In this document: piece by piece, positions 1-21,682 of the stretch
Position numbering within the stretch: position 1 is the stretch's first letter
How the letters are laid out: each line of letters begins with the position of its first letter
Virus record (IMG/VR): IMGVR_UViG_3300006916_000467
Coordinates: 1 to 21,682 of that record
DNA from: a virus
Strand: one strand, 5' to 3'
Length of the DNA stretch: 21,682 bases
Translations under genes and position numbers: made by a program
The notes under the pieces: generated by a model
What the model was told of the DNA's origin: nothing
Databases searched by the model: none
The model's input: the letters and a program-made list of their open reading frames with translations, nothing else

Positions 1-19
1 TAAATCAATGAATTAGAAT

Positions 20-232
20 ATGACAGACGACAAGGATCGTGAAGAAAAAATACGCCGCAACCGTGAGAAATACCCAGAGATTGCGGCGTTAGTAGATGAA
101 GTCAGGAAATATTTTCCCGAAGCGAAGGTCACTTCTATTCGGAAGCTGACACCTCAAGAGCAGGAGCAGAGGCGTCAAGTTCTAACCAGTCGCGAACAAG
201 GCGTAAGGGTCTGGCCAACTTCTGAGCGATGA
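20..232 (+). CDS. Small hypothetical phage protein
   Basis: A 70-residue, very charged reading frame that starts with ATG four bases after an in-frame TAG. No clear Shine-Dalgarno sequence is visible in the 19 bases before it. The first 45 residues look like a genuine small phage protein: an acidic and basic helix followed by a VDEVRKYFPEAKV segment of the kind seen in many uncharacterised phage proteins. The last third is antisense to the end of the primase gene and reads as low-information Gln/Arg-rich sequence. The two genes overlap tail to tail by 98 bases. I assign no function. It could be the last gene of a rightward unit lying outside the window, or its natural end may have been lost so that translation now runs on to 232. 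Confidence 0.5.
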   Translation: MTDDKDREEKIRRNREKYPEIAALVDEVRKYFPEAKVTSIRKLTPQEQEQRRQVLTSREQGVRVWPTSER

Positions 233-2075
233 CGTCTGGGTCGTGACCATCTAATGCCATGTCTTTCGCACGTTGCTTGGTTGATCTGCTCGACACAACA
301 ATCTTCTCGTCTGTGATGTTGTGCGCCGCGTATCCAACCCACTGCACACGATCATGTAGGTCAGTCCATTCTCGGACTTTGCCATACCGTATCTCCATCA
401 CCATGTATAAGCGATAGTCAGACGGTAGCTTTGCTTGTAGCTGTGGCCAGATTGGGTGGTCATAGTTGCCATCGTACAGACCTGCGTTCTGTTTGGCTGT
501 GTCCTCGTCATCAAAGACCTGCGCCACTCTGATCTGTGTCTCCAGCACAGTAAGCTGGTTTGTTGAACCCGCCTCTCGGCCAATGCCACTTTCAGATGGC
601 TTGTTGCTGTGGTGGATCATGATCACAGACAGGCCAGAGTTGCGAAGTTTGACTGCCAGCTTGTTGATTTTTGCCCACTCGTCTGCGGAGTTCTCAGCCA
701 AACCGGGATACGCAGACCGAATGGTGTCGATCACAACCACGTCTGGCTCTGCAAACTCAATCCAACCTTGCAGTTCCATCAGCCCTTCACGTTGGTGGAG
801 GTCGATTTCTTTCTTGTCTACGAAGGGTGTCCAGATGTTGAGGCGGTCTTGTGTGTCGCCATGTATCTGCCGCATTTCGATTAGGCGTCTGGCGATTGTC
901 GACATGCCCATCTCGAAGTCGAGATACAAAACTCGTGCAGGTCTGCCGATTTCAAATGGCCCGAAATACTTTCGCCCTGCACATAGTGCGGACATCGCAT
1001 GCTGAACAAAAAGTGATTTGCCATGGCCAGAGTAACCGAAGACCTGCACGATTGTATTAGCAGGTAGCCAAGGCTCAATCAAATAAGATTTGGCGTCACT
1101 CTCAGATAATAATTGCTCGGCATCAGCCATTTGGATGAGGCGTCTATCCCTCTTTTCCTCTTGCTGTTTCTCATGCACATAAGGCTTGTAAATATAGTCG
1201 CCATTATCATTGAAACGATCAGGATGGTTGCGTCGTTCGGACTGCTCCATTGACTGAACCGTCGCCTCGAACTCGCGCTCGTCCAGTTGATCTGCGAAGA
1301 ACTCATTCATGAAGGCGTGTCCGCGCAGACGCAGGTCTGGGCCAAAGTAACCTTCCAATATGCTCTCGCTGATGTGCCGCATCACTCGTTCGTTGCGGCC
1401 ATTGCTCATGCCAGACGGTATCTTCAGAGTGTTGGGGAAGTTGTCACGCACATACTTTGCTGTGCGATCCCACTCACTAACAAACTCATCAGGCTGTAAA
1501 GGCTCAACAGACGACAGGTCAAGCTCATCAAAATGAAAGTCCCCGTCTGGTCTTCTCTCTTGCAGACAAGGCTTCCAGTCTTCCCACATTGGGAACTCAT
1601 CCCAGTCTATGTACTGAGGGTAATCCCAAATGTAGTTGTTTGATGGGGGAAGTAGCGCATAGCTACCGTCCCCACGGAAGTCGAGGCCGTTGATCTTTGG
1701 CCAATCTGCTCCCCGACTATTTATCCCTGCTCTCGGCCCACGCCGCACGCCATCACGCGGATGTTCAAAGTATAAGTGAACACCGCGCTTTGTTTTTACG
1801 CGGATGGGTGAACGCATACCCGCATCGAATGCGGCATGCAGTGCATCTTCGTTGTCACAATCGACAACCACCACGCCACTGATTGCACCAGTGACGATTG
1901 CTATGTCGTGGTCTGGCCACTTCGTCCACCATTCTTCCACCTCTTCCTCGGTGGGGTGTCTGTCTTGGTAATCACGCCATTTAATAGCGGGTCTCTTCCC
2001 TTCTGGCTTGATTGGAATGATGCTCCAACCACGATCCAGATATTCAAGAGCCGCATCCAATTTGGTCTTGGACAT
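135..2075 (-). CDS. Bifunctional primase-polymerase / RepA-type AAA helicase fusion
   Basis: A replication protein of about 646 residues that probably makes primers and unwinds the phage origin or fork. Residues 5-150 match the prim-pol fold: the acidic pair D72/D74 in VVVVDCDNED, H100 in KRGVHLYFEHP, and the family signature LDFRGDGSYALLPPS near 131-145. From about residue 330 there is a RecA-fold ATPase like AAA_25/RepA: Walker A GYSGHGKS at 347-354, an acidic LDFEM at 385-389, a Walker B-like strand VVVIDT ending at D450, and a MIHHSNK motif. The C-terminal 40 residues resemble a small winged or HTH segment. A TTG start at 2090 is possible, but GAAGAGG at 2088-2082 lies six bases before the ATG at 2075, so I prefer that start. 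The gene overlaps the HTH gene upstream by 32 bases, suggesting coupled expression. Confidence 0.9.
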   Translation of the reverse strand: MSKTKLDAALEYLDRGWSIIPIKPEGKRPAIKWRDYQDRHPTEEEVEEWWTKWPDHDIAIVTGAISGVVVVDCDNEDALHAAFDAGMRSPIRVKTKRGVHLYFEHPRDGVRRGPRAGINSRGADWPKINGLDFRGDGSYALLPPSNNYIWDYPQYIDWDEFPMWEDWKPCLQERRPDGDFHFDELDLSSVEPLQPDEFVSEWDRTAKYVRDNFPNTLKIPSGMSNGRNERVMRHISESILEGYFGPDLRLRGHAFMNEFFADQLDEREFEATVQSMEQSERRNHPDRFNDNGDYIYKPYVHEKQQEEKRDRRLIQMADAEQLLSESDAKSYLIEPWLPANTIVQVFGYSGHGKSLFVQHAMSALCAGRKYFGPFEIGRPARVLYLDFEMGMSTIARRLIEMRQIHGDTQDRLNIWTPFVDKKEIDLHQREGLMELQGWIEFAEPDVVVIDTIRSAYPGLAENSADEWAKINKLAVKLRNSGLSVIMIHHSNKPSESGIGREAGSTNQLTVLETQIRVAQVFDDEDTAKQNAGLYDGNYDHPIWPQLQAKLPSDYRLYMVMEIRYGKVREWTDLHDRVQWVGYAAHNITDEKIVVSSRSTKQRAKDMALDGHDPDVIAQKLARPLRLVRDWLELDASAPALEVSASE

Positions 2076-2271
2076 CTTCATCCTCTTCAAAGTATAGGTC
2101 TAAGTCTAGTTCTGGGTTCTCGGACTTGATTTTCTCCAAGACGACGCTCGACACATACTGTCTTGTAACCCACCCATAAGGCGCAGTGCGAACCACGCCC
2201 ACGAGTTTAGCCACAGAAGATGCGCCGCCCAAATCATCTATAAGACGTTGGATGTTGAGCTTCGCTTGCAT
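2044..2271 (-). CDS. Cro/YdaS-like helix-turn-helix regulator
   Basis: A 75-residue DNA-binding protein. Residues 8-36 (LIDDLGGASSVAKLVGV, then RTAPYGWVTR) fit the Cro/YdaS pattern, in which an LGG turn, an SSVAKLVGV helix and an AxYGW recognition helix form the HTH. The tail from about residue 52 is strongly acidic. An ATG at 2292 would add seven basic residues but has no ribosome site. The ATG at 2271 is preceded by AAAAGG about nine bases upstream, so it is preferred. It is the first gene of the leftward early unit, directly beside a divergent promoter region with palindromes. It most likely represses its own transcription, the rightward operon or both. Target and direction are inferred. 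Translation runs 32 bases into the primase gene. Confidence 0.75.
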   Translation of the reverse strand: MQAKLNIQRLIDDLGGASSVAKLVGVVRTAPYGWVTRQYVSSVVLEKIKSENPELDLDLYFEEDEDVQDQIGCGS

Positions 2272-2292
2272 TCGATCTTTCCTTTTTTTCAT

Positions 2293-2343: not shown

Positions 2344-2387
2344 GACGTCATTCGTAGTTGCTGACGTTATAACTAAAGGAGGTATGT

Positions 2388-2819
2388 ATGCCTGAGACTG
2401 ATAGCTGGTCTGTCTTCGCCGACACATCCAGCCCCCCGAAGTCGTCCGTCTCCGCTAATCGGCTTGAGCCATTAGCAGAAGAGTTCGACAGACTAACCAA
2501 AGAGCGTGACGCGCTCGATGAACGCATAGGCCAACTCGAAAATGAGATCGCCTACCTTTTCCCAGAGGAAGCGGGTGAGATTGCCCAATCCACAGACAGG
2601 TTCGAGGTCTTGGTTACACGATCTGAGCGTTGGACGTGGAACAAGGAAGCACTCGAAAAGCAGTTTGGGGAAGGACAACTGCCAGACCATGTGAAGCGTA
2701 GTCTGACTGTTGATAAGCGTAAGTTCCAAAAGCTACCGCAACATGAGCAAGAGCCTTTGCGATACGCGCTTACCCGAAAACTCGACCGACCAAAGATAAA
2801 GGTGATCCCAAATGTTTAA
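2388..2819 (+). CDS. Phage coiled-coil protein of the recombination operon
   Basis: A 143-residue soluble protein behind a near-perfect ribosome site (AAAGGAGGT, five bases before the ATG). After a Ser/Pro-rich N-terminus, residues 27-58 form a clear heptad-like coiled coil. The C-terminal half has aromatic and basic patches (SERWTWNKEAL, KRKFQKLP, LDRPKIKVIP). It is first in a rightward operon directly ahead of a Sak4-like ATPase, and similar unnamed proteins are common upstream of such ATPases in phages. A role in DNA recombination or as an ATPase partner is plausible from context only. The coiled coil also invites comparison with Gam-type nuclease inhibitors, but I see no specific Gam motif. 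The stop overlaps the next start by eight bases. Confidence 0.85.
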   Translation: MPETDSWSVFADTSSPPKSSVSANRLEPLAEEFDRLTKERDALDERIGQLENEIAYLFPEEAGEIAQSTDRFEVLVTRSERWTWNKEALEKQFGEGQLPDHVKRSLTVDKRKFQKLPQHEQEPLRYALTRKLDRPKIKVIPNV

Positions 2820-3576
2820 GACTATGAGTACATCGGACGTCTCACGCGACGAGCCGACCAAGACTTTGCTGTATGCACATCACGGCTACGGCAAGACCTA
2901 TCAATGTCGCTACTACCAGAAGCGTTATGGCAAGGGATTGATCATATCTGGTGAAGCAGGGCTAAAGTCTATTGAAGACGTGGCCATTGATTACCTGCCC
3001 TTCTCCTCATGGGATGGCAAGCATAACCCAGACGACGGTGTCTATTCGTTCCGTGGTATCTGGAAGATGATTGACAGCCCTGAGTTCAAGGAAGCAGGGT
3101 TCAAGTGGATTGCAATCGACAGTCTGACTGAGATGTCTGAGCGTCTGATTGAACACTTGGAAAAGGAACACGAAGGGAACAAGAACGGTTTCCAACTGTG
3201 GGGTGATTACAACCGCATTATGTTGGGTGCCTTGAAGACCATTCGTGACCTGCCTTTGCATGTCTATGTGACGTGTCTGGCAAAAGAAGAGAAGGATGCA
3301 AATGACGTCACTCACTATTGGCCGTTGGTCAAGGGTGGCTCTGTATCCAAACACGTACCTGCCCTGTTCGACCACGTGCTTTGTGGTGTTCGAGTGACAG
3401 AAACGAATGACCAAGGGAAACCAAAGGTAACTCGGTACATTGTCACAGACGAAGTGTCTGGTTGGCATGGCAAAACACGTGATCCACGCAACCGTCTGAA
3501 GCCATTTGAGAAGTGCGAAGACGTAACAGAACTCTTAAACCGAATGGTCGGTGAGGAAGAAGGAGAAAGTAAATGA
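2812..3576 (+). CDS. Sak4-like RecA-fold ATPase (AAA_24 type)
   Basis: A 254-residue ATP-binding protein of the type used by phages as a short RecA-like single-strand annealing or strand-exchange protein. Walker A is AHHGYGKT at residues 22-29. Walker B is the hydrophobic strand ending in D103 (KWIAIDSLTE). A third beta strand, LHVYVTCLAKEEK, precedes a region with KGGSVSKHVPALFD, which fits the core layout of Sak4/AAA_24 proteins and their usual length of about 220-260 residues. The upstream AAGGTG about eight bases before 2812 supports this start; an internal ATG at 2824 is the alternative. The stop overlaps the next start as ATGA, so it is translationally coupled to the DUF669-like protein, a pairing seen in many phages. 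ATPase identity is sure; the recombination role is inferred. Confidence 0.88.
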   Translation: MFKTMSTSDVSRDEPTKTLLYAHHGYGKTYQCRYYQKRYGKGLIISGEAGLKSIEDVAIDYLPFSSWDGKHNPDDGVYSFRGIWKMIDSPEFKEAGFKWIAIDSLTEMSERLIEHLEKEHEGNKNGFQLWGDYNRIMLGALKTIRDLPLHVYVTCLAKEEKDANDVTHYWPLVKGGSVSKHVPALFDHVLCGVRVTETNDQGKPKVTRYIVTDEVSGWHGKTRDPRNRLKPFEKCEDVTELLNRMVGEEEGESK

Positions 3577-4049
3577 GTGATTGGAATGGTTTCGGGTCAT
3601 TAGACCTGTCCAATGTAGAAGCCAGTGGTGGTAGCGCACGTCTGCAACCCGGCACATATACCGTGAAATGTTCGGAAGCAAAGGTCGAACAGATCGGTAG
3701 CACAAACAACCGCAAATTGGTTGCAGACTTTGTAGATGTAGATGGATCAGGCGACATCCGCGTGAACTTCAACATCCTGCACTCAAGCGATCAGGCGCAA
3801 GAGATTGGCAGACGTCAGTTGAAGTCGTTCTTGATTGCCGCAAATCACCCCAACCCAGACAAGCCGGGCGACGTTGATAAGCTGAAAGGTCTTCAGTGCA
3901 AGATCATCGTTGGCATGGGTAAGCCATGGAAGGGTGATGATGGCGTTGAGCGTCAGTCAAGTGAGGTCAAGAAGTTCATGGCTATGGCTGAAGCGGCGGC
4001 GTCTGCTGGCTCAAAGTCAGACGACATGGACGACGACATCCCTTTCTAA
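3573..4049 (+). CDS. DUF669-like protein, probable single-strand DNA-binding protein
   Basis: A 158-residue protein with a beta-rich core and an N-terminal LQPGTYTVKCSEAKVE strand pair typical of DUF669-type phage proteins. Its last nine residues are acidic and end in DDDIPF, essentially the SSB C-terminal tip that recruits replication and repair proteins in bacteria. That tail, after a flexible Ala/Ser/Lys stretch, is the best argument that this protein coats single-stranded DNA and docks partners such as the neighbouring ATPase or nuclease. It starts in an ATGA overlap with the ATPase gene, with AAGGAG upstream. It is followed by the leftward terminator hairpin before the nuclease gene. Confidence is high for the gene and moderate for the exact function. 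Confidence 0.85.
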   Translation: MSDWNGFGSLDLSNVEASGGSARLQPGTYTVKCSEAKVEQIGSTNNRKLVADFVDVDGSGDIRVNFNILHSSDQAQEIGRRQLKSFLIAANHPNPDKPGDVDKLKGLQCKIIVGMGKPWKGDDGVERQSSEVKKFMAMAEAAASAGSKSDDMDDDIPF

Positions 4050-4056
4050 GCCATAC

Positions 4057-4082: not shown

Positions 4083-4098
4083 TAAATTGAGGGAAGCC

Positions 4099-4914
4099 AT
4101 GAGCATAAAAGCTACCGAAGTTGTCTTCAAGATTGACGAAGGATATGACAGAAAAACCGAAGAGAGAGCGCGAGACTATATTGGGGCTTCGGGCATCGGA
4201 CATCCCTGCGACGCCTACCAAGCCTACAGCCTACGCGGATTTCCCAACACTGAGCCAGACGCTCGCCTCAAGCGAATATTCCGCTTGGGCCACATCCTCG
4301 AAGACGAAGTCGTCAAAGACTTAAAGGAGAAGGCAGACGTTCGGGTCTGGGAAGTCGATGGTCTGACTGGTCGTCAGCACACATACGAAGAATGGAACGG
4401 TCATGTGGTCTGCCACATGGACGGACACATAGAACTAGATGATGGCGAACTGCGCGTCTTGGAGATCAAGTCCATGAACGACGCATCGTTTAAGAAATTT
4501 CAGAAGGACGGAGTGAAATACTCGCATCCACGTTACTTTGCACAGGTGCAAATGATGATGGGGATGTCTCAGATACATGAGACCTTCTTTATCGCTGTGA
4601 ATAAAAACAACAGCGAATACCATGCGGAGATTGTAAAATATGATGAGTTTGAATTTGGACACATCAAGGATCGGATACAGACAGTGTTCGATGGAAACGC
4701 AAAAAAGATCAGCGTCGACAACTCAGACTGGCGTTGCCGAGGGTGTTTCAAATCAGACGTATGTTGGGGCGACCGTAGTGTTCCCAAGTTATGTCAGACC
4801 TGTAGCTTTTCCCGTCCAAAGCCAGACGGTGGATGGCATTGTAGCAAGCATGACAAGGACACCCTTAACCCTTGCGAAGATTACAAATTGTTTGAGCCAT
4901 TACCGAAGGAGTAA
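4099..4914 (+). CDS. Cas4-like PD-(D/E)XK nuclease with Fe-S cysteines
   Basis: A 271-residue RecB/Cas4-family nuclease, probably an exonuclease that makes or trims ends for recombination. The catalytic motif is D108 (HMDGHIEL) followed by E122-x-K124 (LEIKSM), with Q151 in the following helix. Cysteine C37 near the N-terminus and C213-x2-C216-x5-C222 near the C-terminus match the spacing that holds the iron-sulphur cluster in Cas4 and AddB. A second cysteine group follows (C232, C235, C248, C259), with the look of a small zinc knuckle. I chose the ATG at 4099, just after GAGGGA. The same frame is open upstream to 3910, but that part overlaps the DUF669 gene and reads as noise. The adjacent ATPase and SSB-like genes support a recombination role. 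No cas1 or cas2 is present, so this is not a CRISPR gene. Confidence 0.88.
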   Translation: MSIKATEVVFKIDEGYDRKTEERARDYIGASGIGHPCDAYQAYSLRGFPNTEPDARLKRIFRLGHILEDEVVKDLKEKADVRVWEVDGLTGRQHTYEEWNGHVVCHMDGHIELDDGELRVLEIKSMNDASFKKFQKDGVKYSHPRYFAQVQMMMGMSQIHETFFIAVNKNNSEYHAEIVKYDEFEFGHIKDRIQTVFDGNAKKISVDNSDWRCRGCFKSDVCWGDRSVPKLCQTCSFSRPKPDGGWHCSKHDKDTLNPCEDYKLFEPLPKE

Positions 4915-4918: not shown

Positions 4919-5206
4919 ATGAAGCTAGAGGAGTTAAAGGAAAAACACGAGGCGATTGCAGAAAAGACCTCCACTCTTCTTGCCGAAATCGAAGCCAAGC
5001 AGAATGAAATCTTGTCGATTACTGAACGTCTGGATGAGATCAACATTCTGAAAGGTGAGGACATCAAAGCGCAGAAGGCACGAGCGAAAGAGAAACGTGC
5101 GCGTCTGCGTGATGAGATCACAGACCTGCGACATAATGTACGTCTGTTGGATGGGCAGAAAGAATGGCTAATGATCAAGGCGAAAGCTCTGGCAGGTGAA
5201 CTATGA
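4919..5206 (+). CDS. Small coiled-coil protein
   Basis: A 95-residue protein that is almost one continuous charged helix: residues 3-45 and 52-85 show strong heptad patterns rich in Glu, Lys, Leu and Ile. The ATG at 4919 follows GAAGGAG by seven bases, and the gene starts five bases after the nuclease stop. The frame remains open far upstream, but that part lies inside the nuclease gene. Its end overlaps the next gene as ATGA. I recognise no family. Its position suggests a helper for the nuclease or replication proteins, or a scaffold-like dimer. That is inference only. Confidence 0.75.
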   Translation: MKLEELKEKHEAIAEKTSTLLAEIEAKQNEILSITERLDEINILKGEDIKAQKARAKEKRARLRDEITDLRHNVRLLDGQKEWLMIKAKALAGEL

Positions 5207-5565
5207 AGCGCGGCGAAATATTAGGCAAGGCTTCAGAATATGTTGATGGCCCAAGGGCAGACGACTACGGCGACGCGTTCGAGAACTTTGAGCGGATTGC
5301 TGAAGGATGGAATATTATTCTCAAGAACGCCTTGAATACGCACGGATATTTCACAGCATCACACGTCGCATTGATGATGGATTGGGTAAAGACAGCACGT
5401 CTATTGCACAACCTAGAAAGCGCAGACGGATGGATTGATAAGTGTGGATATAGCGCACTCGGTGGCGAGTGCGCTATGAAGAGCAGAGAGCGGAGTGATT
5501 ACGCTAAGTCTCTAATTGAAAATGCGGCCCGTCCAAGAAAGGCCGACGACCCTGAGAGCGTCTGA
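5203..5565 (+). CDS. DUF6378-family phage protein
   Basis: A 120-residue protein matching a widespread phage family of unknown function. The recognisable features are the N-terminal AxxYVDGPRADDYGDAFENF segment, an IAEGWNIIL helix, a DVA-like SHVALMMDWVKTARL helix and the DGWIDKCGYSALGGECA segment near 75-90. The aspartate, asparagine and lysine pattern resembles all-alpha nucleotide-binding folds, but no activity has been shown that I can cite. It starts in an ATGA overlap with the previous gene, with an AGGTG site. It is the last gene of the rightward operon, and its last 62 bases overlap the end of the endolysin gene on the other strand. Its GGEC codons sit in a perfect 12-base hairpin. 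Confidence 0.82.
   Translation: MKRGEILGKASEYVDGPRADDYGDAFENFERIAEGWNIILKNALNTHGYFTASHVALMMDWVKTARLLHNLESADGWIDKCGYSALGGECAMKSRERSDYAKSLIENAARPRKADDPESV
5450..5477. other. 12-base perfect stem-loop inside the DUF6378 gene
   Basis: ATAGCGCACTCG (5450-5461) is followed by the loop GTGG and the exact complement CGAGTGCGCTAT (5466-5477). It lies 26 bases beyond the endolysin stop in the leftward direction and 88 bases before the DUF6378 stop in the rightward direction. Neither side carries a strong U tract, so it is not a classical terminator. It could mark or protect the 3' end of the late transcript, act as a processing site, or slow polymerases at the meeting point. Confidence 0.6.
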
Positions 5566-5971
5566 TGTCAACGTATTCCATCATCAACGCTTCACAAGTT
5601 CCCTTGTGATCCGTTAATTTCTTGTGCCATGCCGCTCCCCAAGTGAGTTCGCAACCAACTTCTTTGGCGGCAGACAAGAATGCGTCTGCAATCTCATCAT
5701 ACAAATTCAATTCCCAGACGCCATTTGAGCCAACATAGGCCATGGCGTCTATGGCGTGCGAGTATCCGTCTGCCTGTGGTAGATGGTAAGACTTCATTGT
5801 CTTTGACCTGCCAGTGCGGACATTCTCCTCCTGCTCGGCTACAGTTCTGGTGCCGCAAATAATTCCGAAGTCGATCTTAGTACGACCGATGGCCAGTTTG
5901 CAGACGTCCACGAGTTGTGGATGTACGCCTTCTAGTTTTGACAGACTGCGGTTAGATAGTTTGAAGCTCAT
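5504..5971 (-). CDS. Endolysin, M15 (VanY / L-alanyl-D-glutamate peptidase type)
   Basis: A 155-residue zinc peptidase that should cut peptide cross-links of the cell wall at lysis. The M15 ligands are visible: H63 in SYHLPQADGYSHAIDAMAY, D75 in the same stretch, and H150 in the closing DGPHFQL. A WGAAW segment at 111-115 matches the WGGDW-type motif of the family. The length is normal for single-domain phage M15 enzymes such as the T5 endolysin. There is no signal peptide, so release depends on the holin. It starts in an ATGA overlap with the gene upstream, with GGAGG just before it. It is the last gene of the late leftward operon and overlaps the DUF6378 gene tail to tail by 62 bases. Confidence 0.88.
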   Translation of the reverse strand: MSFKLSNRSLSKLEGVHPQLVDVCKLAIGRTKIDFGIICGTRTVAEQEENVRTGRSKTMKSYHLPQADGYSHAIDAMAYVGSNGVWELNLYDEIADAFLSAAKEVGCELTWGAAWHKKLTDHKGTCEALMMEYVDIRRSQGRRPFLDGPHFQLET

Positions 5972-6441
5972 TCTGACGCCCCTCCTATGTTGAAGTTTAG
6001 GTTCGGGTGATCAGGGTATTGAACAACAACTGGCCCCTCTGGGCATGTGTAGTGTATGTATGCGATAAGTGTTGCCGTGCCATCGCTTACTTTTTCTGGA
6101 TCATCTATAGTAAACGTGTACGCAAATGTATCGACACGATTGTTTGCTGGCCCCATGAATGTAGTGATAGATGGGGTTACGTTATGAACAAGAAGTTCAC
6201 TGTCTCGCACATTCAGTATGAAGTCATCGACGTTGCAGTCGTCGCGTAGCTTTACCCTTGCCACCTCAACTTTGAATGGCCCGTTAGATGGGCCGTCTGT
6301 AATATTGAAGTATTCAGGCGACCACTCAAGTATGGGGCGTTTAAGCCAACCAAACTTGTCTGCCGCTTGATACCCGCCAGCAATCAATGCGACACTGGCA
6401 GTAGCTATACCGATGTACGTTTTGATGCTGTCGATGTCCAT
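5968..6441 (-). CDS. Unknown membrane-anchored protein of the lysis cassette
   Basis: A 157-residue protein with one membrane segment at about 7-27 and a soluble, beta-rich domain from 40 to 157. The soluble part has only two cysteines, C69 and C133, which could pair if it is outside the cytoplasm. However, the basic residues just after the helix would by the positive-inside rule favour a cytoplasmic C-terminal domain, so topology is unclear. There is no lipobox and no proline-rich or coiled-coil region, so it is not a standard spanin. It sits between holin and endolysin, with a TAATG overlap upstream and ATGA downstream, so it is made together with them. A role in lysis timing or envelope disruption is plausible from context. 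I do not recognise the family. Confidence 0.8.
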   Translation of the reverse strand: MDIDSIKTYIGIATASVALIAGGYQAADKFGWLKRPILEWSPEYFNITDGPSNGPFKVEVARVKLRDDCNVDDFILNVRDSELLVHNVTPSITTFMGPANNRVDTFAYTFTIDDPEKVSDGTATLIAYIHYTCPEGPVVVQYPDHPNLNFNIGGASE

Positions 6442-6845
6442 TACTTGGCAACTCCTTTTGTCTTCTCGAATGTGCGCAGACCACCAAGGCCGAGCATGCC
6501 GAGCAACACAGTCATCAGGCTATCCATCTCAAACGATGGGAGATCACTCGGATGCAAGCCAGTTACGTTGAATGAAACAAGCGCAAACACTACGATGGGA
6601 TGAATGATGAAATGGTATGCTAACGCGACCGCGCAGACCCATCCGACCATCGGCCTCCACCCCGCAACGAATATACTGCGGTGTGCGGCTTCAGCCTTGT
6701 TCGTTTCGATTTGACCCATCGCCGCTTCGTGCGCATGTTTTTCTGCCATGGTTGCGATTTCGTGAGCGAGTTTGGCTCTTTGGTCTTTGTCCTCGATGAA
6801 CTTGTCGAGAAGGCCAGTGACTGGCCCGATCAGTGCTTGCAACAT
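6441..6845 (-). CDS. Holin, three-helix GTA-release type
   Basis: A 134-residue membrane protein of the family known as holin of three TMs for gene-transfer-agent release. Residues 1-55 are an amphipathic charged helix. RSIFVAGWRPMVGWVCAVALA starts the first membrane helix, a second follows around 80-97, and the third is MTVLLGMLGLGGL near 111-123, ending in a RTFEKTKG tail. The AGWRP and LGGLRTFEK motifs are the family signature. I use the ATG at 6845 because AAGGAG lies six bases before it. An upstream ATG at 6896 would add 17 polar residues and overlap the previous gene. It would form the pores that let the endolysin reach the wall. The stop overlaps the next start as TAATG. Confidence 0.88.
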   Translation of the reverse strand: MLQALIGPVTGLLDKFIEDKDQRAKLAHEIATMAEKHAHEAAMGQIETNKAEAAHRSIFVAGWRPMVGWVCAVALAYHFIIHPIVVFALVSFNVTGLHPSDLPSFEMDSLMTVLLGMLGLGGLRTFEKTKGVAK

Positions 6846-6867
6846 GTTGGTCTCCTTGTTTTCTGCT

Positions 6868-7074
6868 TCACTTCTCATGTCCGATCCAGACGGCAAACGC
6901 GCCTGTCATCGCGCCCGTGACCGTTGCTGTCAGGGCTGTCGCTTGTGAGGTCATCGCTTCAGGTGGAAGACCCATGAACCAATGGAGGACTTCAATGTAC
7001 ATCCACGTCATGACGCCCATCATAATTCTGGGCATCAACTTCCAAGCGAGAACTCTCTCCATCACTATCGTCAT
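6868..7074 (-). CDS. Small two-helix membrane protein
   Basis: A 68-residue protein with two predicted membrane helices, about residues 17-35 (Met/Trp-rich) and 46-65 (ATALTATVTGAMTGAFAVWIG), joined by a short MGLPPEA turn. The VTGAMTGAFAVWIG ending is shared with small proteins next to holins in many marine phages. GAGG at 7084-7081, six bases before the ATG, overlaps the stop codon of the giant gene, so the two are coupled. It could be a second holin, a pinholin or an antiholin. The sequence alone does not decide between these. Confidence 0.75.
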   Translation of the reverse strand: MTIVMERVLAWKLMPRIMMGVMTWMYIEVLHWFMGLPPEAMTSQATALTATVTGAMTGAFAVWIGHEK

Positions 7075-16000: not shown

Positions 16001-16916
16001 CAAACTCGCCCGTATTAAATTGAGCGGTAGGTGTTTCTGCCTGTGCAGTTGGTGCCGCTTCTTCTACTGGAGCGGGTTGCATAAATTGGTCTACATCACG
16101 AGAACCAGTGACTAGATCGTTCAAGCCACGTGCGCCACCTGTGGCAAGCGTCTCGCGGATTTGCGCGTCTGTCATGCCACGAGCGCGTAAGCTCGCAACG
16201 TCGTCGATACCCTGACGTGCGCCAGCGATGCCTGATGGAATACCGATTGCACCACCAACGCCTGCGCCAAGCACACCGCCTGCCAATGCAGACACGCCAA
16301 GTTCTGCGCCACTAAAGCTGTCGCGTGCGCCAGTCTGGATGTCGCGAATTTGTTCGGCAGTGTTGACGATTGCTTCTTGGCCAGCAGAAATCGCGCCCTC
16401 TGATGCGGCGGCTCGGCCTACACCAGATACTGTGCCACGTGCAACTGGAGCGGATTTGCCAGCGACGTAGGCCGCACGGCCTGCGGTCGCGGCACCTTTG
16501 TAAGCCGCAACACCGGGAATAAGATTGAGAGGATCAGCAATGATTGCGCCAGCAATGTCACCAAGTGCGCTTGCGCCACGGCCACCGTCTTGCCAGAAGT
16601 TTGGAAGTTGACGCCAGACGCTGTCGATGCGGCGCATACGTGCGCGTTGTTCTGCGGATGCAGACGATGCTTCCATCGCGTCGCCGATTGCCCCAACTGT
16701 ATTGAGGTCGCCCCACGTCTGATCGCTGTAGAACATGTCGATCAGGTGTTGGTCGTCTGCGAAGTATTGACCCTTCTCCCTGTAGTACGAACGAAGGTCG
16801 TTCAGGAAGCGTGGGTCTCGCATGATTTGGCGAGGATTTACAGTACCAGAATAGTCTTCAGTCGGCTGATTGCCGAAGTTTTGGATGTCAACTTGACCCT
16901 TAGTATAAAAGCTCAT
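7083..16916 (-). CDS. Giant polyvalent internal virion protein with metallopeptidase and ADP-ribosyltransferase-like domains
   Basis: A 3277-residue protein in the place where T7-like phages encode gp16 (1318 residues), so it is likely carried in the capsid and ejected with the DNA. Visible parts in order: a conserved N-terminus with DPRFLNDLRSYY and FYSDQTWGDLNTVG; a Gly-rich hydrophobic stretch at 207-233; a Pro/Ala/Glu linker at about 430-495; a zinc peptidase motif HEVAH at 1260-1264 with probable third ligand E1331 in SPQEFFANQF; a basic Ala/Lys linker at about 1615-1660; an ART-like domain with YHGT at 2097-2100 and GPGYYLT at 2126-2132, then NPEQ; NYLPQVWD near 2590; and hydrophobic segments near 3070-3185. 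I saw no lysozyme motif. The start has GGAG ten bases upstream, in a hairpin. Enzyme activities are inferred from motifs. Confidence 0.9.
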   Translation of the reverse strand: MSFYTKGQVDIQNFGNQPTEDYSGTVNPRQIMRDPRFLNDLRSYYREKGQYFADDQHLIDMFYSDQTWGDLNTVGAIGDAMEASSASAEQRARMRRIDSVWRQLPNFWQDGGRGASALGDIAGAIIADPLNLIPGVAAYKGAATAGRAAYVAGKSAPVARGTVSGVGRAAASEGAISAGQEAIVNTAEQIRDIQTGARDSFSGAELGVSALAGGVLGAGVGGAIGIPSGIAGARQGIDDVASLRARGMTDAQIRETLATGGARGLNDLVTGSRDVDQFMQPAPVEEAAPTAQAETPTAQFNTGEFGDFAEDLAKVNTTLDGATRAARQLIDDLRTSGADADTIARAEEEAATIAALRSAQKRAEREAKQIIELEGSNAVGDIEKAAQLRRRYETYMADVRQVLAAADGLEPDELLARMDADGFGLRQQADEAPAPEQELAPAPEAPPEQVMTDAPSTDGPMTDAPETPAARAETPEAEPEAAPEPETPAQPIAFGRVEAQARALLDDTYSEADLARDIASGLITTGKRGQLVKQSISDIRTKKGIDQGGRDLTRALGGDAETPATPTPREELEGILQTIDMGDPMYKDNPLEAFDAIRRRANEVGAKADPDELVAIFARENGLDADVPTANIPDISIEQRGRAIAEGLDWRSLQPSANSKDGRITKGVISKALRTRGDAKPSDYALTVQRELDEIGDLLDSFGEELTDDQIRTWVAKLGSSDEFKSSADDLLALLDHEIRMRDATESNASNVSKYTKTELKQIDRLSKKYKGEIEGISDDAARTMAEARVMEMRGNASKTLERGTQKAIDDKSIYTTAGRAKTGRIQSFLRRGTRISKGSDYTVSGGYQVRPNEFGREAAMIQAKSGKGQDLVPYETTGTEQVFGPTGLVEVKKGGTAWADGVTGRAYVSRDFALKARGDAPSTAQPTAAPKAEKSVDQTLAALLDQYADETDVDALLRELRTRRAAKDKTAAPEVVPAADVKPSPPPSPGDKKLIARSKDNPDDIRLISRQQVEDGKDIYAIIGQKGGKASDPDNWEIRYAPMDANPKTLMAKKALFDSLPVEEAATGRGARFNAGDATGMGDPLDVKDADKLNFEPTAEEQAALRLAAGKVGYTGQVEGMLSSGKPMSFQTLRLLTSTLDTQTRWPLIDKQRMEVTQALRTLYAAQRRVNPQGFTLTNVERKDLIENLDGILSGYSAEELSTAHRLIRDLGGDPNVAPEIRGRNGGGDNHNMTSEGRAYININLQAKKTHPRIATLYHEVAHWAYRNILTPEDRVEFWDHMTEYYVTGSKGQKLKKDGGKINDRLPTYTGMDVGGGYTLSTNAGDSPQEFFANQFSVWAMQKHADVEVRDLGFWKRMTDYVQAVFDRFFAKETIDPSLEPLFAKILPDRVQEKKFAMGVDSKPVTPEGKILQSRHAQLQALERDINEAFASDSAEGIITSFQELKRFLLSVAINNKEGVPVAGMGGSGPLLALRSPKGKPNTLLKILNEKFKAIDEILGGKTSELTSIDDTASARRFLEGGDLAGLQSIGNPQEIADNLRDFYFNGYAGKWQPANGIPGQISKRAIDKGYSSVKHMIESIDDALSSGYQRAEGKGTLPAGSKPRVQNDPPRNADGVAKPSATKAKAKANRATQAARAEAQAVADANTPKPKRARASGKNTPAVDVSVAGSPKDLSLRKLFTAYRKHRGTDYGDQLAIEIASKVKARPLPAKQVPVTREIFAMGGQELEQTLLEAAYEGNKDVLNMALYELGRRANKKLAMKNGGKVISPVFRDSNLIISREVNDNVGVMTSDGIPPSARASLRENLSFLTHRDADVQTTLRTMAYRLYNIMGKTARGTNEQTNALMAGDVARLAGRDETFAGDGVFGDYRSPEFNEFRKATRRIASTLNKGNASPEEAVGDLMHMVVRSGALKPDESEAIIEAYRSLDSGMRKRIEGLIGAKYADRPEYIREQAIANEWFADAVNRYTREDIPRRQILEGVITGDANNIRMRNTLDRAIDRNIDYSAYVTNGQFGRADVNGRYLRLTFYGDMFVNGESRPMSASVDGALTHPSYAADYAADAINSASKPRAVNMVNFTKGGFGYNAEAEVPVVFYHGTPKGYVFRRTDDNPNAIFRRSQGGNYGPGYYLTANPHVATQVYSRRPTMEAMFQQAEELNLPAAEKEDLDWDIWDMVETRREISRLRREYTVIEENIGVDPDVTTSTLDAFRNTLDEMVANEQALAESLAARGLNIDPYVMPMLIQLRRPVDFRSTTVYNLNHPTIKAIMGRMNEVGNYNERTFKHLSDALLDKDVEGTVAYRELVNSIMKSGRNRVAAQEELTGFLDDLGHDGMITTHRNTLSSGEDLMQNADTYRASSVTHTSVILFNPEQAKHVDADYFDINDEMVYNNIVEKERIIPRGVNGDVTMALMDESIESINDIPVGQFGELLEQEGTNSTMTGAIMSMLRKRDMSVQEEAAVRKSGPFKYFERSSQRMKNMGMNWLGDRYKEHFPDLNQRFAKKIMPVFDRLSRLPDSDGILRGHFRRSTSSIGQDQPKSHSRIVKALRYGDGSRQEKALSADERVIYKQIRANLANERMELIKEGYHVGDRGPNYLPQVWDQKKIAKNRDEFVEKMRRYYMREKLEFGQDFTDEQATAFAEGVMLKLLDEADDGIFIPVKGTTKNSTFENVDYSRIIELEKYPDMLKELEPFLESNLEGLLVKYFEGSSRRLTSAKRFGVNSHAVSDYLMVANEGKQGIVDLLTKNKQFEYDITAMNPQGRREVATLVDTIRMPFQGAAQEASAFADTLIEVAQTSGPSGARQMLMDIAPLDTSGRVNPVYEKRVDAIVGALADFKGKPGSVDTDEGLRYVEDAMSVLLKKPMRGTNKTAMRVSRGVRMFNNVSLLGFTTLTSIGDLGLPIIRSGSFKSWATGVKNLRDPHYREMIRNVGVAMENIVHERMVHMYGAPDNKASHAFFNATLLTPWTDMNRMIAGATGYEAFRTMQMKARDTFKEGVPYAQQSAQYKTAHRFLKNYGLSEFLPGAKRAGEMIDPSIMEEDGLRMAIIKFADDAIFQPNPNDIPLWAQTPIGALVFQLKSFPLMMSRLTGHVLSEANKGNLKPLAYLASVGPLFGAATLTAKDIIQQRGGEDERSSELRKRNLLKALGYDEKVHGGENDFMGWYVESMMVMGGLGLLGDVIHSAVSQVDNGAYGQQRMWSTVLGPSFGLGNATMQVAAGIFDEGDNSNAKERSAMREVATRIPVLGGNRRFREGLVDAAAGEPNSGNSGGWQGSWNKSY
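15226..15523. repeat. Three exact copies of a 13-base repeat in a low-complexity linker
   Basis: GCAGGAGTTTCTG occurs at 15226-15238, 15451-15463 and 15511-15523, with a two-mismatch relative near 16025-16037. On the coding strand it encodes the repeated tetrapeptide ETPA within Pro/Ala/Glu-rich segments of the giant protein. Codon-level identity suggests recent internal duplication or recombination rather than only amino-acid selection. Confidence 0.6.
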
Positions 16917-16966: not shown

Positions 16967-16986
16967 TGAATGCCTATCGGTCGTCC

Positions 16987-19257
16987 TTACTGGACTGGGG
17001 GAACCGCTCTGTTCAGGCTCTCTGCGAACTCGCGACCACGATCACTTCTGAAGAACTCAAGCACGAATGGATCGGTGCTTGTCATCATGAACTCAAGTGG
17101 GTTGGCAACGAATGCGTCATATGCTGTTGGATTGTCCATTAGCGTGGTTCTCACGCGTGGTGTCCGCAGGAATGTATGGATCATGCTCGCTCTTGCACGG
17201 TCGACCTCAGTGTATTCGTTCATGCCAAGGAAGCCGCCAACATACGATGCTGGTGCTGAGACCATACCATTCTGTGTTGCAATGCTTTCAAGCTGTGCAG
17301 ACTTGTCCATGTTCTCTGTGAACTGCTGGAAGTCTTCAACCGCCGCTGGAGCGTTATCGCTGAGTGCGGGGTTGTTGCCAGATGGCTGACTGTTAAGTTG
17401 TTGCTGTAGTGCGGCGCGTGCTGTCGCAAGTTCTGTTTCCAGACGCTGACGTATCTCAGTGACAGATGCGTTCATCACGCCCTCTAAGCTGTCGCCACTA
17501 CCGAAGATTTTGCTCTGATCCCAGAGGCCACCCTCAATATCAAGCCACCCAAGGCCACCGTTGGCAGTCGTTTGCAGGCGTCCAAGAGTTTGCCATTTGC
17601 CGACAAGGTCGCGAACACCGTTGTTTAGCTGGCTGTCGATAGCTGTCAGTACGTTTATCAGAACTTCTGGGTTGTCGCGGTATGTCCTTACTGCGGTCGC
17701 GATGTCGTCTGTGACGTCTGTCATCGCTGTGTCCAGAGCCTGCTGTTCGCCAGAGTACCAGTTCTCGAATGTCTGGATTTCTGGGCTTCCGCGCAAAGAC
17801 TGGATTTGTGTACCAAGACGCTCTTTTGCTTCGCGTACCGTATGGCCCTGAACCGCCGCTTGGAAACCCGGATCGGAGCGAACCATTTGTGCAACGATAA
17901 GTGGGTTGGTTCCGTCTTCTGCCGTGATTGACTGGAAGACTGCCTCCATCGCCGCAAGAACTTGCGGTGTCATCTCGTATTCTTGTGCAAGCTGAACTGC
18001 CGCCAACTGAGCGGAACGACCCGCAGGGCCAGCCTGTGGTGGGAAGTTCTGGTTGCTTGTGCTTCCAAAGTACGCTTCGACTGAAGCCACATTCCGTGTG
18101 TCGAAGTCTGCAAGACCCTGCTGAACTGCTGTAGATGCTTCGTCAACGCCAGTAGATGCGAGGCCACGTTGCTTGAGGCGAAGCTCTTGCTTCACTTCAT
18201 CTAGGTAATCCATCAGGTATTGGCGTGGGTTTGCTTCAAATGCTTCGCGGCTTTCGACGCCGAATAGTGTTTTTAGGTCAGCTTCTGGCAATGCTCTCGC
18301 ACGTGCCGCAATGCGATCCATTAGGTCGTCATCATCTTGCAAGACGACCGCGCTTTGGATGCCGGGTCGATCAAGCAAGCTGGTTAAGAAGTTGTTGCCA
18401 AGCTCAAGGGCTTCACGTTCGTTCACAAGACTTTCACGACTTGCGACTTGGTTGGCTTCAGCTTGTAAGTTTGTGAAGAACGTACTGTCTTTAGTAGGCA
18501 GATTGATGTCTTGGTAGACGCCGACAATAGTCTCATAGACGTCTGGATCGCCACGCTGGATGGCCTCAACTGCTGTGCGAAGAATGTCCTGTCTGCGTTC
18601 TGTCGCATAAGTCAGACGACGCTGATCTTCTAGTGTGTTGGCTTGCGTAATAAGTGGTTGGATCAATGCAGTCGGAACACCGAATGGCGCAAGGTCTTCT
18701 GCCGTAATGTTTCTGCCACCTGCGTTATTTACAAGCGTCTGTATGATTGGCGCATACTCTTGGATGCGTGACGCAATCGCCGCGTTGCGGCGTTGCGTTG
18801 TAAACATATTATTTGGATTGAAGCCCATCTTGCCGAAGTCGACATTTGGGAAGCGTTCCTGCAACTGCTGTTGCATAGCTGTAAAATCTGTTGCTTGATA
18901 GCCACCTTCGCCCGGATCATCATAGCCAAGCATGATGCCAGTGACCGCTCCAGATAGGGCGTCCTGTAGCTCAATGTTACGCTTAAAAACATCATATTCA
19001 CGGTCAGCGTCTGCACGCTCACGGTTTGTGTTTGCTTGTGAAACAACTGCGTCCAGTGCCGCGCCAGACGGCATGCCGCCGCGCAAGTAGTTGCGACCGC
19101 CAGACATGCTGTCGATAAACTGCTGGAATTGATCTGCTGTAGCCGTTGGGTTTAGGCGTTGAAACTCGTTGAACGCTTTCGCGAGTTCGCCGCGTCTGCG
19201 TTCATCACGTTCTTGTTGAGCATTAAATCCTGATGCGAAGCCTGCGAAATCTATCAT
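16987..19257 (-). CDS. gp15-like internal virion (ejectosome) protein
   Basis: A 756-residue protein with no signal peptide or membrane segment, rich in Ala, Gln, Asn and Asp and apparently mostly helical. It begins with an IDFAGFASGFNAQQERDERR stretch that looks like a short conserved docking sequence followed by helix. Length and position match gp15 of T7 (747 residues), which forms the middle part of the DNA-ejection tube between gp14 and gp16. I see no enzyme motif. A TTG at 19266 is an alternative start, but the ATG at 19257 forms a TAATG overlap with the previous stop, a typical coupled arrangement, so I chose it. Gene certain, role inferred from order and size. Confidence 0.85.
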   Translation of the reverse strand: MIDFAGFASGFNAQQERDERRRGELAKAFNEFQRLNPTATADQFQQFIDSMSGGRNYLRGGMPSGAALDAVVSQANTNRERADADREYDVFKRNIELQDALSGAVTGIMLGYDDPGEGGYQATDFTAMQQQLQERFPNVDFGKMGFNPNNMFTTQRRNAAIASRIQEYAPIIQTLVNNAGGRNITAEDLAPFGVPTALIQPLITQANTLEDQRRLTYATERRQDILRTAVEAIQRGDPDVYETIVGVYQDINLPTKDSTFFTNLQAEANQVASRESLVNEREALELGNNFLTSLLDRPGIQSAVVLQDDDDLMDRIAARARALPEADLKTLFGVESREAFEANPRQYLMDYLDEVKQELRLKQRGLASTGVDEASTAVQQGLADFDTRNVASVEAYFGSTSNQNFPPQAGPAGRSAQLAAVQLAQEYEMTPQVLAAMEAVFQSITAEDGTNPLIVAQMVRSDPGFQAAVQGHTVREAKERLGTQIQSLRGSPEIQTFENWYSGEQQALDTAMTDVTDDIATAVRTYRDNPEVLINVLTAIDSQLNNGVRDLVGKWQTLGRLQTTANGGLGWLDIEGGLWDQSKIFGSGDSLEGVMNASVTEIRQRLETELATARAALQQQLNSQPSGNNPALSDNAPAAVEDFQQFTENMDKSAQLESIATQNGMVSAPASYVGGFLGMNEYTEVDRARASMIHTFLRTPRVRTTLMDNPTAYDAFVANPLEFMMTSTDPFVLEFFRSDRGREFAESLNRAVPPVQ

Positions 19258-20756
19258 TATCCCCAACCCCCTTCGGGCGTCACATTCCAGCCCTTGCCAC
19301 CGAGCCAGTTATTCATCTTGTCATCCATTGTGTTCAGCCAAGAACCTTCTTTCGCCGCACTGTCATTGACTAACTTATTAAATGAAGTACCAAATGCTGA
19401 AGATGCGTCGAAGGAGCGAGACTGAGCGTTCTGATAATTTGTAGCGGCGGCATTGTACAAGTTGTTGCCGATGCTTTGTGCGTTGCCCAAGTAAGTATTC
19501 GGGTCGTTTACCGTCACGCCATATGGGTTGAAGATTGCACTGTCGATATTGAAGCCAGCGTTGTTTACTAGACTTGTTGGACGGCTGTAGTCTGCAATGC
19601 CCGGTGTCAGTGTGCCAGCAACTGCGGCAGACCCAATGTTTACAGGAGCGCGGAAATTGTTCGCGCTAGAAATTGAGCGGTTGTAGATGCCAGACGGTAC
19701 GATTGATGCGTAACGTGTTGCGTCTACCGCAGACGCGGCCTGCGGAACTTTCATCATTTGGTCGATGCCTGCGCCTGCAACATTTGCTGTTTCAGAAAGA
19801 ATGCCAGAACGACGCTTCATAATGTCGTTGACGTTTGAAGCTAGAAGGCCAGTTTCTCCAGTGATGTATTTGAGGGCGTCATCGTATGCACGGTTGCGTG
19901 CAGATTGGTATTCGTTTGCAATGCGTGCCGCAATGTCGCCACGTCTTGCTGTTCCCGGCGTGCTTTCATCGAGGCCACTGCGGATCAGAGCCGCTTCGTT
20001 TACAGACGCGACACGGTCTGCCGCGCGGTCTACATCAGATTGGTATTGTGCAGAACGTCTGTCGACCTCGCTTGCTATGTCTGCGCCAGTGACGCGTTCG
20101 ATCTCAGGGATCATACCAAGGCCAGCGGCTGTCTGGTTCAGTGCCGCTTGGTATCCGTAGATGTTATTGAAGATTTCGTCGCGTGTCGCCAGTTGGTCGT
20201 TACGCTCTGCCATTGCCTGACGTTGAGCGTTTTCGTACTGATCCATCAGGTACTGACGCTCGATCTGAGCCATGGCACGCTCTTCAAGGAAGCGGCGCAT
20301 GTCGTCGTCACGCTCTCCTGACGCAACCGCCTTTGCTTCCTCAAGCTGTTTAATGGCAAATGCACGCTCGTCTTCAGCGATGTCTTGACGCTTCAGAAGG
20401 TTTTCGAGATTGAACTGCTGGATTTTCGCGGCTTCTTTATCCTCTTGGATTTGCCGTTCGATGTCCATTCGACGCTGTTCCATAAGAGCGTCTTCGTTCT
20501 TGCGAAGCTGTTCTAGCTCAAAGTCACGCTCTTGCTCACGGATGCGTCTGTTCATCCGCTCCATCTCACGCTGGTATGCGTTCTCCTCACGCTGATCACG
20601 CTGTGCATCGCGCATCATGCCGAGGTTCATCCTCTGCAAGTCCATCTGCTGACGGAACTGGTAATCCTGTTGTGCGCGTGCGGCGGCGGCGTCATTTGAG
20701 GCTGATATGGCCCCGAACGCGCTACCTGCTAATCCTAATACTGCGGAGAACGCCAT
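19257..20756 (-). CDS. gp14-like internal virion protein with long coiled coil
   Basis: A 499-residue protein. Residues 3-19 are small and hydrophobic (Ala, Gly, Ser, Leu), followed by ASNDAAAARAQQDYQFRQQ. That is the usual opening of podovirus gp14-type proteins, in which a short membrane-active helix leads into a helical body. Residues 25 to about 215 form a very long Arg/Glu/Gln/Met-rich coiled coil. The C-terminal 170 residues switch to Asn/Ser/Ala/Gly-rich sequence ending in EGGWG. T7 gp14 is much shorter (196 residues), so this is an expanded version. It starts three bases after the previous stop, with AAGGG about eight bases before the ATG, and overlaps the next start as TAATG. Likely the outer-membrane end of the ejection channel, by analogy. 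Confidence 0.85.
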   Translation of the reverse strand: MAFSAVLGLAGSAFGAISASNDAAAARAQQDYQFRQQMDLQRMNLGMMRDAQRDQREENAYQREMERMNRRIREQERDFELEQLRKNEDALMEQRRMDIERQIQEDKEAAKIQQFNLENLLKRQDIAEDERAFAIKQLEEAKAVASGERDDDMRRFLEERAMAQIERQYLMDQYENAQRQAMAERNDQLATRDEIFNNIYGYQAALNQTAAGLGMIPEIERVTGADIASEVDRRSAQYQSDVDRAADRVASVNEAALIRSGLDESTPGTARRGDIAARIANEYQSARNRAYDDALKYITGETGLLASNVNDIMKRRSGILSETANVAGAGIDQMMKVPQAASAVDATRYASIVPSGIYNRSISSANNFRAPVNIGSAAVAGTLTPGIADYSRPTSLVNNAGFNIDSAIFNPYGVTVNDPNTYLGNAQSIGNNLYNAAATNYQNAQSRSFDASSAFGTSFNKLVNDSAAKEGSWLNTMDDKMNNWLGGKGWNVTPEGGWG

Positions 20757-20759
20757 GAT

Positions 20760-21682
20760 TTATGCCCTTAATACGTTTTGCGCGAATGCCGATGGTGATA
20801 GCGTGTTTGCGTACTCCTCTTCCTCTTGCTCTGACAACATTGCTAGATATTGATTGAGCGTGATGGGATCAATTTGGTCAAAGTTTTGAAACTCTGGAAC
20901 ACCACTTGCCCCCACTGTTGAGAGGATGGCTTCGCGAGCGATACGGTCACGTTCCGCTACAGCTTCTGCATCACGCTCTAGGCGTTGGCGTTCACTGTTC
21001 AAACGGCCTTCAGCGGCACTAATTTCATCCAGTGCTTGCTGTGCATTATAGAGTTCGATCTCTGCTTGCAGTGCATCGAAGCCTTCTTGGTTTTGACCGA
21101 GGTCATCAACGCCGTAGTATTGAGCGTTATTGACTTGTTCGAGAAGTGCTTGTGCGCGGGTTTCCAGCGCATTACGTGCATCAGATAGCTCTTGCATACG
21201 TGTGTCGATCTGACCAGACGCATCACTAAGTTGGCTGGAGATGTCGTTGACCCGACCGCCAGTAAAGCGACCAAGCTCACCACCTGCTTCTGTAAGTTGA
21301 CGCTGAAGATTGCGCATGCCTTCTTCATCGTATGCTTCAAGCCCCGCAATGTTACCTGCGGTTCCAGTGATGTTGCCAAGGATGTCGTCGAGAGCAGTTT
21401 GTCTGCGGCTCTTGAGATCAGCTAGTGCAACGTCTGCGTCTGTGAGAGACCCTGTTGCGCCAGAGAAGTCATATGGAAGCACAGACGAGAACCCACTCAT
21501 GTTAGTGCGAGCATCGCGTAGCGCGTCTTCGATAGCGTCAATGCCAGCGGCACTGTAGATGCTACCGCCTTCTGCGGCGTCTTCAACCGCACGAGCGGAG
21601 GCCAAGTAGTCACGCTGTGCTTGGTCAATTCGGCCAAGCTCTGATGTGCGTTGGCGTTGAAGCGTGTTCACGTCACCGAGCA
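20760..21682 (-). CDS. Partial coiled-coil structural protein (5' end outside the window)
   Basis: The frame is open to the right edge, so the N-terminus is missing. A GTG at 21671 could serve as a start, but no ribosome site can be judged there and the codons before it (LGD) remain open. About 307 residues are visible, mostly Ala/Glu/Gln/Arg/Leu-rich helix with coiled-coil character around residues 140-250, then a short tail with PEFQNFDQIDPITLNQYLAML. There is no enzyme or membrane signature. It is the most upstream late gene seen and is placed like the tail or internal proteins that precede gp14 in podoviruses. A virion structural role is inferred from position. Confidence 0.78.
   Translation of the reverse strand, partial: LGDVNTLQRQRTSELGRIDQAQRDYLASARAVEDAAEGGSIYSAAGIDAIEDALRDARTNMSGFSSVLPYDFSGATGSLTDADVALADLKSRRQTALDDILGNITGTAGNIAGLEAYDEEGMRNLQRQLTEAGGELGRFTGGRVNDISSQLSDASGQIDTRMQELSDARNALETRAQALLEQVNNAQYYGVDDLGQNQEGFDALQAEIELYNAQQALDEISAAEGRLNSERQRLERDAEAVAERDRIAREAILSTVGASGVPEFQNFDQIDPITLNQYLAMLSEQEEEEYANTLSPSAFAQNVLRA

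Follow-up and report, generated by a model that had tools for sequence, protein, structure and literature searches.

We found that the pentamer GANTC is entirely absent from IMGVR_UViG_3300006916_000467, a whole linear IMG/VR record of 21,682 bases with a GC content of 51.7% (hereafter the window), and that this absence belongs to a much broader loss of recognition sites of Type II restriction enzymes. The record is probably a phage genome fragment and, judged from its Prim-Pol/AAA_25 primase and its gene order, belongs to the CRP-810-type phage family. We consider it likely that a CRP-810-family phage of an alphaproteobacterium, most likely a roseobacter, has shed many Type II sites of host enzymes, with GANTC, the specificity of HinfI, among them.

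The absence of GANTC is real and was reached largely through codon choice. GAATC, GATTC, GACTC and GAGTC each occurred 0 times in the 21,682 bases, as the original prediction had stated with an expectation of about 85 copies at equal bases; Markov models of orders 0, 1, 2 and 3 gave 84, 101, 86 and 57 copies, respectively. When synonymous codons were shuffled gene by gene in 14 genes (21,033 coding bases), with protein and codon usage preserved, 55.5 ± 5.6 copies were obtained, and none of the 1000 shuffles gave fewer than 39. The observed count therefore lay below the Markov and codon-shuffle expectations alike (0 versus 55–101 across the nulls), as the proposed selection against the site would have it. 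GANTC ranked lowest of the 256 XXNYY words and was the sole zero among them. GATC and the near-misses of GANTC had been described as common, and the counts bore this out: GATC was not avoided (103 versus 95 expected), and the 12 single-change neighbours of GANTC, which form six reverse-complement pairs, had observed/expected ratios (O/E) of 0.84–1.20. Serine in the dipeptides Asp-Ser and Glu-Ser was encoded by AGY in 42 of 42 cases, compared with TCN for 266 of the 415 serines of the gene set, and NTC codons after a codon with a GA end numbered 0 of 577. Near-identical contigs from other IMG/VR records were equally poor in GANTC, with observed/expected counts of 0/66, 0/36, 0/26 and 1/30 (L003, L004, L005 and L006).

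The original prediction had taken the deficit to be specific to GANTC. This reading was rejected, because GCWGC, GGWCC, CCWGG and 41 six-base palindromes show the same deficit. GCAGC, GCTGC, GGACC, GGTCC and CCTGG were also present in 0 copies, and in these degenerate sites the W-centred words were lost and the S-centred ones were not: GCWGC was found 0 times against 70 expected (0/70) whereas the S-centred GCSGC stood at 112/58, GGWCC at 0/27 versus 25/27 for GGSCC, and CCWGG at 1/39 versus 17/13 for CCSGG. Compared with codon shuffles, GCSGC was in excess (109 versus 74) while GCWGC was absent, as if W-to-S changes had erased the sites. Of the 64 six-base palindromes, 41 were at zero, with 195 copies expected for those 41 and an expectation of at least 3 for 26 of them; the remaining 23 were together near expectation (149/167). 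Uniform thinning predicts 13.6 empty palindromes, and at most 24 in 5000 draws, against the 41 seen. Mirror words and near-palindromes had normal counts, and for three-base inverted repeats O/E rose from 0.44 with no spacer to 0.82 and 0.94 with spacers of 1 and 2 bases. A general avoidance of palindromes was likewise rejected, since the per-word counts were all-or-none. The Biopython enzyme table lists 125 palindromic sites of 4–6 bases, 98 of which were testable in the window; 29 of the 98 were purged (O/E ≤ 0.1), or 21 without special cases. The purged degenerate specificities included GDGCHC (0/30), RGATCY (0/24), RCCGGY (0/16) and RGCGCY (1/30).

The avoided words match enzyme specificities rather than palindromes at large, although this match is partly confounded by base composition. 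The enzyme link was evaluated in 18 of 37 sequences, each clade being represented by one or two; of G025, the first 20,000 of its 20,835 bases were used. Across these 18 lineages, the 8 six-base palindromes without an exact listed enzyme had a median O/E of 0.96, compared with 0.23 for the 56 with one (Mann-Whitney p = 1.3e-4), and 7 of the 8 were spared across the family. Random viruses showed the same trend more weakly (median O/E of 0.86 without an enzyme versus 0.52). The cleanest part of the link came from the class of 24 words with two G/C positions, in which the three palindromes without an enzyme ranked 1, 2 and 4.

We then compared the family with other viruses, using 80 of 111 matching random IMG/VR viral stretches, of which the 67 of at least 6 kb were retained (13 of the 80 were shorter and were dropped), and 69 family stretches of at least 6 kb (12 of 81 dropped). 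GANTC had a median O/E of 0.75 in the random stretches, and it fell to 0.1 or below in 1 of 67 random stretches versus 25 of 69 family stretches. Avoidance of palindromes is common among viruses, and the CRP-810 family stands on the strong side: the median O/E of six-base palindromes was 0.59 in the 67 random stretches, individual ones going down to 0.23, versus 0.43 in the family, and lambda was at 0.56. The purged palindromes amounted to 30 of 49 testable ones in CRP-810, 21 of 47 in HMO-2011, 18 of 50 in T7, 5 of 45 in RDJLphi1 and 4 of 55 in lambda. T7 is the classic case of restriction-site avoidance and, like the window, lacks many Type II palindromic sites (GATC 6/143, CCWGG 2/87, and the 18 of 50 palindromes at O/E ≤ 0.1); the purge in CRP-810 is broader, comprising the 30 of 49 palindromes together with GCWGC, GGWCC and CCWGG. 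In the first 50 kb of HMO-2011 (L150), GATC stood at 0/157 and CCWGG at 0/77, and in 15 kb of pelagiphage HTVC010P (L273) CTNAG stood at 0/52.

Among named alphaproteobacterial phages outside the family, all 17 stretches had a GANTC O/E below 0.8, and 15 of the 17 lay between 0.25 and 0.79. NC_019915 is not an Agrobacterium phage but Staphylococcus phage StB20, and it served as a control from outside the Alphaproteobacteria. The remaining 2 of these 17 stretches came from RDJLphi1 and RDJL6, Xiamenvirus phages of Roseobacter denitrificans (host strain OCh114), with GANTC at 1/211 (L151, NC_015466 1–50000) and 1/65 (L280, OK283306 25001–40000, 15 kb) and six-base palindromes at O/E 0.84 and 0.96, respectively. 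RDJLphi1 and RDJL6 are related and share a host, and in both GANTC is purged nearly in isolation; they resemble the window in their near-absence of GANTC and differ from it by hardly avoiding other palindromes. Another GANTC-centred trait of alphaproteobacterial phages is found in phiLM21 and its kin, for which a section of PMC5537653 describes phage-encoded GANTC methyltransferases. By our counts phiLM21 retains GANTC (20/57 in 15 kb), whereas the GANTC-free contigs examined carried no phage DNA methyltransferase detectable with PF01555 and PF00145 (39 records each) or PF02086 and PF05869 (28 records each).

Within the CRP-810 family, the sets of missing sites differ between lineages and form a clade-wise mosaic. 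Site states (purged, O/E ≤ 0.12) were mapped on a tree of the primase, for which 117 relatives were confirmed in viral contigs and the best 80 retained; L051, L063 and L079, with partial primases, were left out of the tree, and two stop codons in L023 and any in L141 were set as X. On this quick tree, in which 31 of 60 inner branches were starred and the backbone was largely open, the window grouped with L003–L006 (support 97). GANTC was purged in 33 of 80 rows and kept in 47, with at least 7 changes. The other scored sites behaved in the same lineage-wise manner, GCWGC being purged in 22 of 76 rows (at least 7 changes), GGWCC in 41 of 69 (at least 9), CCWGG in 45 of 75 (at least 7), GATC in 12 of 80 (at least 3) and CCGG in 19 of 60 (at least 4). 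Large GANTC-poor contigs were also present (G013 1/206, G018 3/207 and G002 7/171). CRP-810 itself held GANTC at 105/214 and so kept it; it lacks GCWGC, GGWCC and CCWGG but has GANTC, whereas the window lacks all four, apart from its single CCWGG.

Closely related contigs displayed such a difference at short range. The sister groups L007–L010 and L011–L017 differ in GCWGC, with 76 of 181 expected copies (O/E 0.42) in G002 (L009) versus 0–1 per stretch in the other group. L015, at 85% nucleotide identity to G002, had zero GCWGC, so that GCWGC was switched between sister groups; in the aligned DNA, GGWCC was at 0 on both sides and GANTC was at 0 on both sides except for one copy in the comparison of L009 with L013. 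Methyltransferase genes were seen in one part of the family: PF01555 matched 5 of 39 family records (G025–G027, G029 and G030, that is, L064–L066, L070 and L071), all in one GATC-purged subclade, where the gene was present in 5 of 6 records. PF01555 was absent from the other GATC-purged records searched (G020, G021, G023 and G024). The methyltransferase of this GATC-free subclade was considered as a candidate CcrM-like enzyme, and we assign it no target: the CcrM model, which has a cut-off of 830, gave it only 96.9 bits, compared with 633.5 for a host CcrM-like protein. A literature search on GANTC, HinfI and site avoidance with phages or roseophages, mostly at the level of listings, returned none on site avoidance in the CRP-810 family, and the outline, the first part of the results and section 9 of the paper describing the family do not discuss site content (PMC11288001).

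The host of the window is most likely an alphaproteobacterium, in line with the original prediction, and a roseobacter is favoured. Among named phages, the closest to the window is Roseobacter phage CRP-810 (80.6% primase identity over 97% of the query), whose host is the CHUG roseobacter strain FZCC0198, and a primase alignment search of GTDB placed a relative as a prophage in Poseidonocella; the same search gave 6 further matches, covering part of the primase only, in other phyla, and a single-sequence primase search of GTDB gave no match. Sections of PMC11288001 describe the family from roseobacters and other Alphaproteobacteria, and report its prophages from SAR11, Poseidonocella and a sphingomonad. 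Our survey of host enzymes covered one bacterial family, that of the Poseidonocella host (G038), presumably the Rhodobacteraceae. CcrM-like genes were present in 113 of 120 genomes of this family (two matches being partial) and PF01555 in 146 of 149. Four stretches of the Poseidonocella genome contained GANTC at 58/240, and GANTC is under-represented in CcrM-bearing alphaproteobacterial genomes, as stated in a section of PMC3973325. The weaker depletion of GANTC in alphaproteobacterial chromosomes and many phages is a separate background, of which CcrM may be the source.

The original prediction had offered regulatory methylation or cutting as the reason for the absence, and the cutting half is the better supported one; regulatory methylation by CcrM alone is not supported. 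If host CcrM methylation of GANTC disturbed phage transcription or replication, a phage might purge the site on that account, and the low GANTC content of CcrM-bearing chromosomes and of all 17 named alphaproteobacterial phage stretches, together with the RDJL phages that lost GANTC almost alone, would fit. However, avoidance does not track CcrM, which is near-universal in the surveyed host family while the purge is variable among phages: CRP-810 and 15 of the 17 other stretches retain GANTC. Because CcrM is nearly constant and the GANTC state changed at least 7 times, CcrM cannot alone explain the absence. It also leaves the simultaneous loss of GCWGC, GGWCC, CCWGG and the 41 palindromes unexplained, regulation would hardly need the removal of every coding copy, and mild depletion extends beyond Alphaproteobacteria, as seen in Pseudomonas phage YuA (O/E 0.50) and in the random viral median. 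We therefore regard this explanation as unlikely. Somewhat less credible still is a nuclease of the phage itself or of a resident prophage, rather than a chromosomal restriction-modification (R-M) system, that cuts GANTC so that the genome avoids its own or its rivals' sites. Prophages of the surveyed host family do carry R-M genes, namely an EcoRI-type nuclease and methyltransferase pair between the terminase and portal genes of one (L287 172–4847, in G042) and two Type II methyltransferases beside the terminase of another (L293 3–3737, in G149). L287 was one of four further PF01555 loci (L287–L290) taken from the surveyed genomes. On the other side, the GANTC-poor G002, G013 and G018 (52–59 kb, 1–7 GANTC) had no match to PF01555, PF00145, PF02086 or PF05869, self-made nucleases purging twenty specificities are implausible, and a prophage-borne nuclease, though conceivable, would still amount to restriction. 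The position of these genes next to the terminase in both prophages may mark a cargo hot spot. Very improbable, finally, is that the zero arose from mutation bias, an assembly artefact or an avoidance of palindromes in general; viruses at large, lambda included, are indeed low in six-base palindromes, but the all-or-none counts, the vanishing of W-centred and not S-centred words, the normal mirror words and near-palindromes, the rarity of such GANTC depletion in random stretches and the agreement of near-identical contigs speak against it.

Escape from restriction by host enzymes is thus the explanation that we prefer, and it would operate as follows. The host population would carry a set of Type II restriction enzymes, including one that cuts GANTC, and every lost site would improve the survival odds of injected phage DNA. 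Sites would be removed largely by codon choice with the proteins preserved, and the outcome would be about 20 specificities at zero or almost zero and most other palindromes near normal. Genes of the expected kind were present in the surveyed family, the EcoRII-C nuclease domain, presumably a CCWGG-type nuclease, occurring in 11 of 198 genomes (two of the 11 with stop codons), and the EcoRI-type pair lying inside a prophage of one genome. Across the 120 genomes, a second CcrM-like gene at E ≤ 1e-40 appeared just once, in G149; it was tried as a HinfI-type candidate and rejected, as it proved to belong to the two-methyltransferase cassette beside the terminase; no nuclease was seen in that cassette, and the contig ends soon after it.

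Several observations weigh against restriction by host enzymes. About 20 specificities are many for one host, so that a host population rather than a single host has to be assumed, and the window's own host is placed only through its relatives. No GANTC-cutting enzyme turned up in the host genomes, where no model able to name one was used, and the RE_SinI model (GGWCC) matched 0 of 198 genomes, with no match in any control either, so that this zero speaks neither for nor against. Site elimination is rarer in temperate phages according to a section of Rusinov et al. 2018 (PMC6286503), and the window's family departs from that pattern, since most of its members carry an integrase (217 of 251 uncultured genomes in the account given in PMC11288001). 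In the enzyme link, the eight AT-only palindromes were all spared, those with a listed enzyme and those without alike, CGCGCG was at O/E 0.34 with no listed enzyme, and the rank correlation with enzyme number, −0.39 overall (p = 0.0016), was only −0.17 in the two-G/C class (p = 0.42) and also not significant within the AT-only or GC-only class. RDJLphi1 and RDJL6 lack GANTC while barely avoiding other palindromes. Their near-isolated loss means that GANTC can be purged alone; these phages are the best evidence that GANTC can face a pressure of its own, and they leave room for a GANTC nuclease that relies on protection by CcrM. If CcrM, nearly always present in roseobacters, already shields chromosomal GANTC, a GANTC nuclease could be gained without its own methyltransferase, and restriction in Alphaproteobacteria would have a preferred target in GANTC. 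We hold this to be doubtful, if conceivable; it would explain the repeated and sometimes isolated purging of GANTC in unrelated roseophages, namely the CRP-810 family and the RDJL phages.

The gene content of the window is that of the CRP-810 type. Eight collinear DNA matches linked positions 14706–34980 of CRP-810 to 56–20737 of the window, and the conserved order of primase, ATPase, nuclease, lysis genes and large proteins was present. The capsid, portal and terminase genes of the family, and the integrase that most members carry, are absent from this 21.7-kb fragment. The 651-aa bifunctional primase/polymerase with an AAA_25 domain (135..2090, minus strand; PF09250, E = 5.5e-29; PF13481, E = 1.7e-27) is followed on the plus strand by a phrog_2480 protein of unassigned function (2388..2819, PHROG match), a Sak4-like single-stranded DNA annealing ATPase (2812..3576; phrog_124, E = 8.2e-31), a phrog_2300 protein, also of unassigned function (3573..4049, PHROG match), a Cas4-domain exonuclease 69.9% identical to that of CRP-810 (4093..4914; phrog_1990, E = 3.3e-61) and a DUF6378 protein, named phosphofructokinase in PHROG (5203..5565; PF19905, phrog_474). 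The remaining genes lie on the minus strand and comprise an endolysin (5504..5971; phrog_465, E = 3.3e-50), a holin of the gene-transfer-agent type (6441..6896; PF11351, E = 1.5e-20) and an open reading frame for a giant 3277-aa protein without a match in a Pfam scan (7083..16916), which alone accounts for close to half of all coding sequence, GANTC-free throughout. Two further proteins of 759 aa (16987..19266) and 499 aa (19257..20756) had no Pfam or PHROG match and are perhaps virion proteins, as their position suggests; a search for relatives of the 759-aa protein confirmed none. The last gene encodes a 303-aa protein (20760..21671) with no accepted Pfam family, its sole match in the Pfam scan falling below the curated cut-off.

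What the window and its relatives show is an avoidance of Type II restriction sites. Such purging has long been familiar in phages, but here it is unusually broad and specific to lineages; what sets it apart is the breadth of the purge in a mostly integrase-bearing family, together with the clade-wise mosaic. It also illustrates how the conspicuous absence of a single site, if it belongs to a general evasion of restriction, can be mistaken for evidence of cell-cycle methylation. Related marine phages that differ in six scored erased sites of 4–5 bases constitute a natural series, with several independent changes and a GCWGC switch between sister groups, and this series makes the restriction systems really used by uncultured marine roseobacters testable from phage sequence. 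A wider possibility, as doubtful as that of the CcrM-protected nuclease, is that the set of sites purged in each lineage could serve as a barcode for the R-M systems which its uncultured hosts carry.

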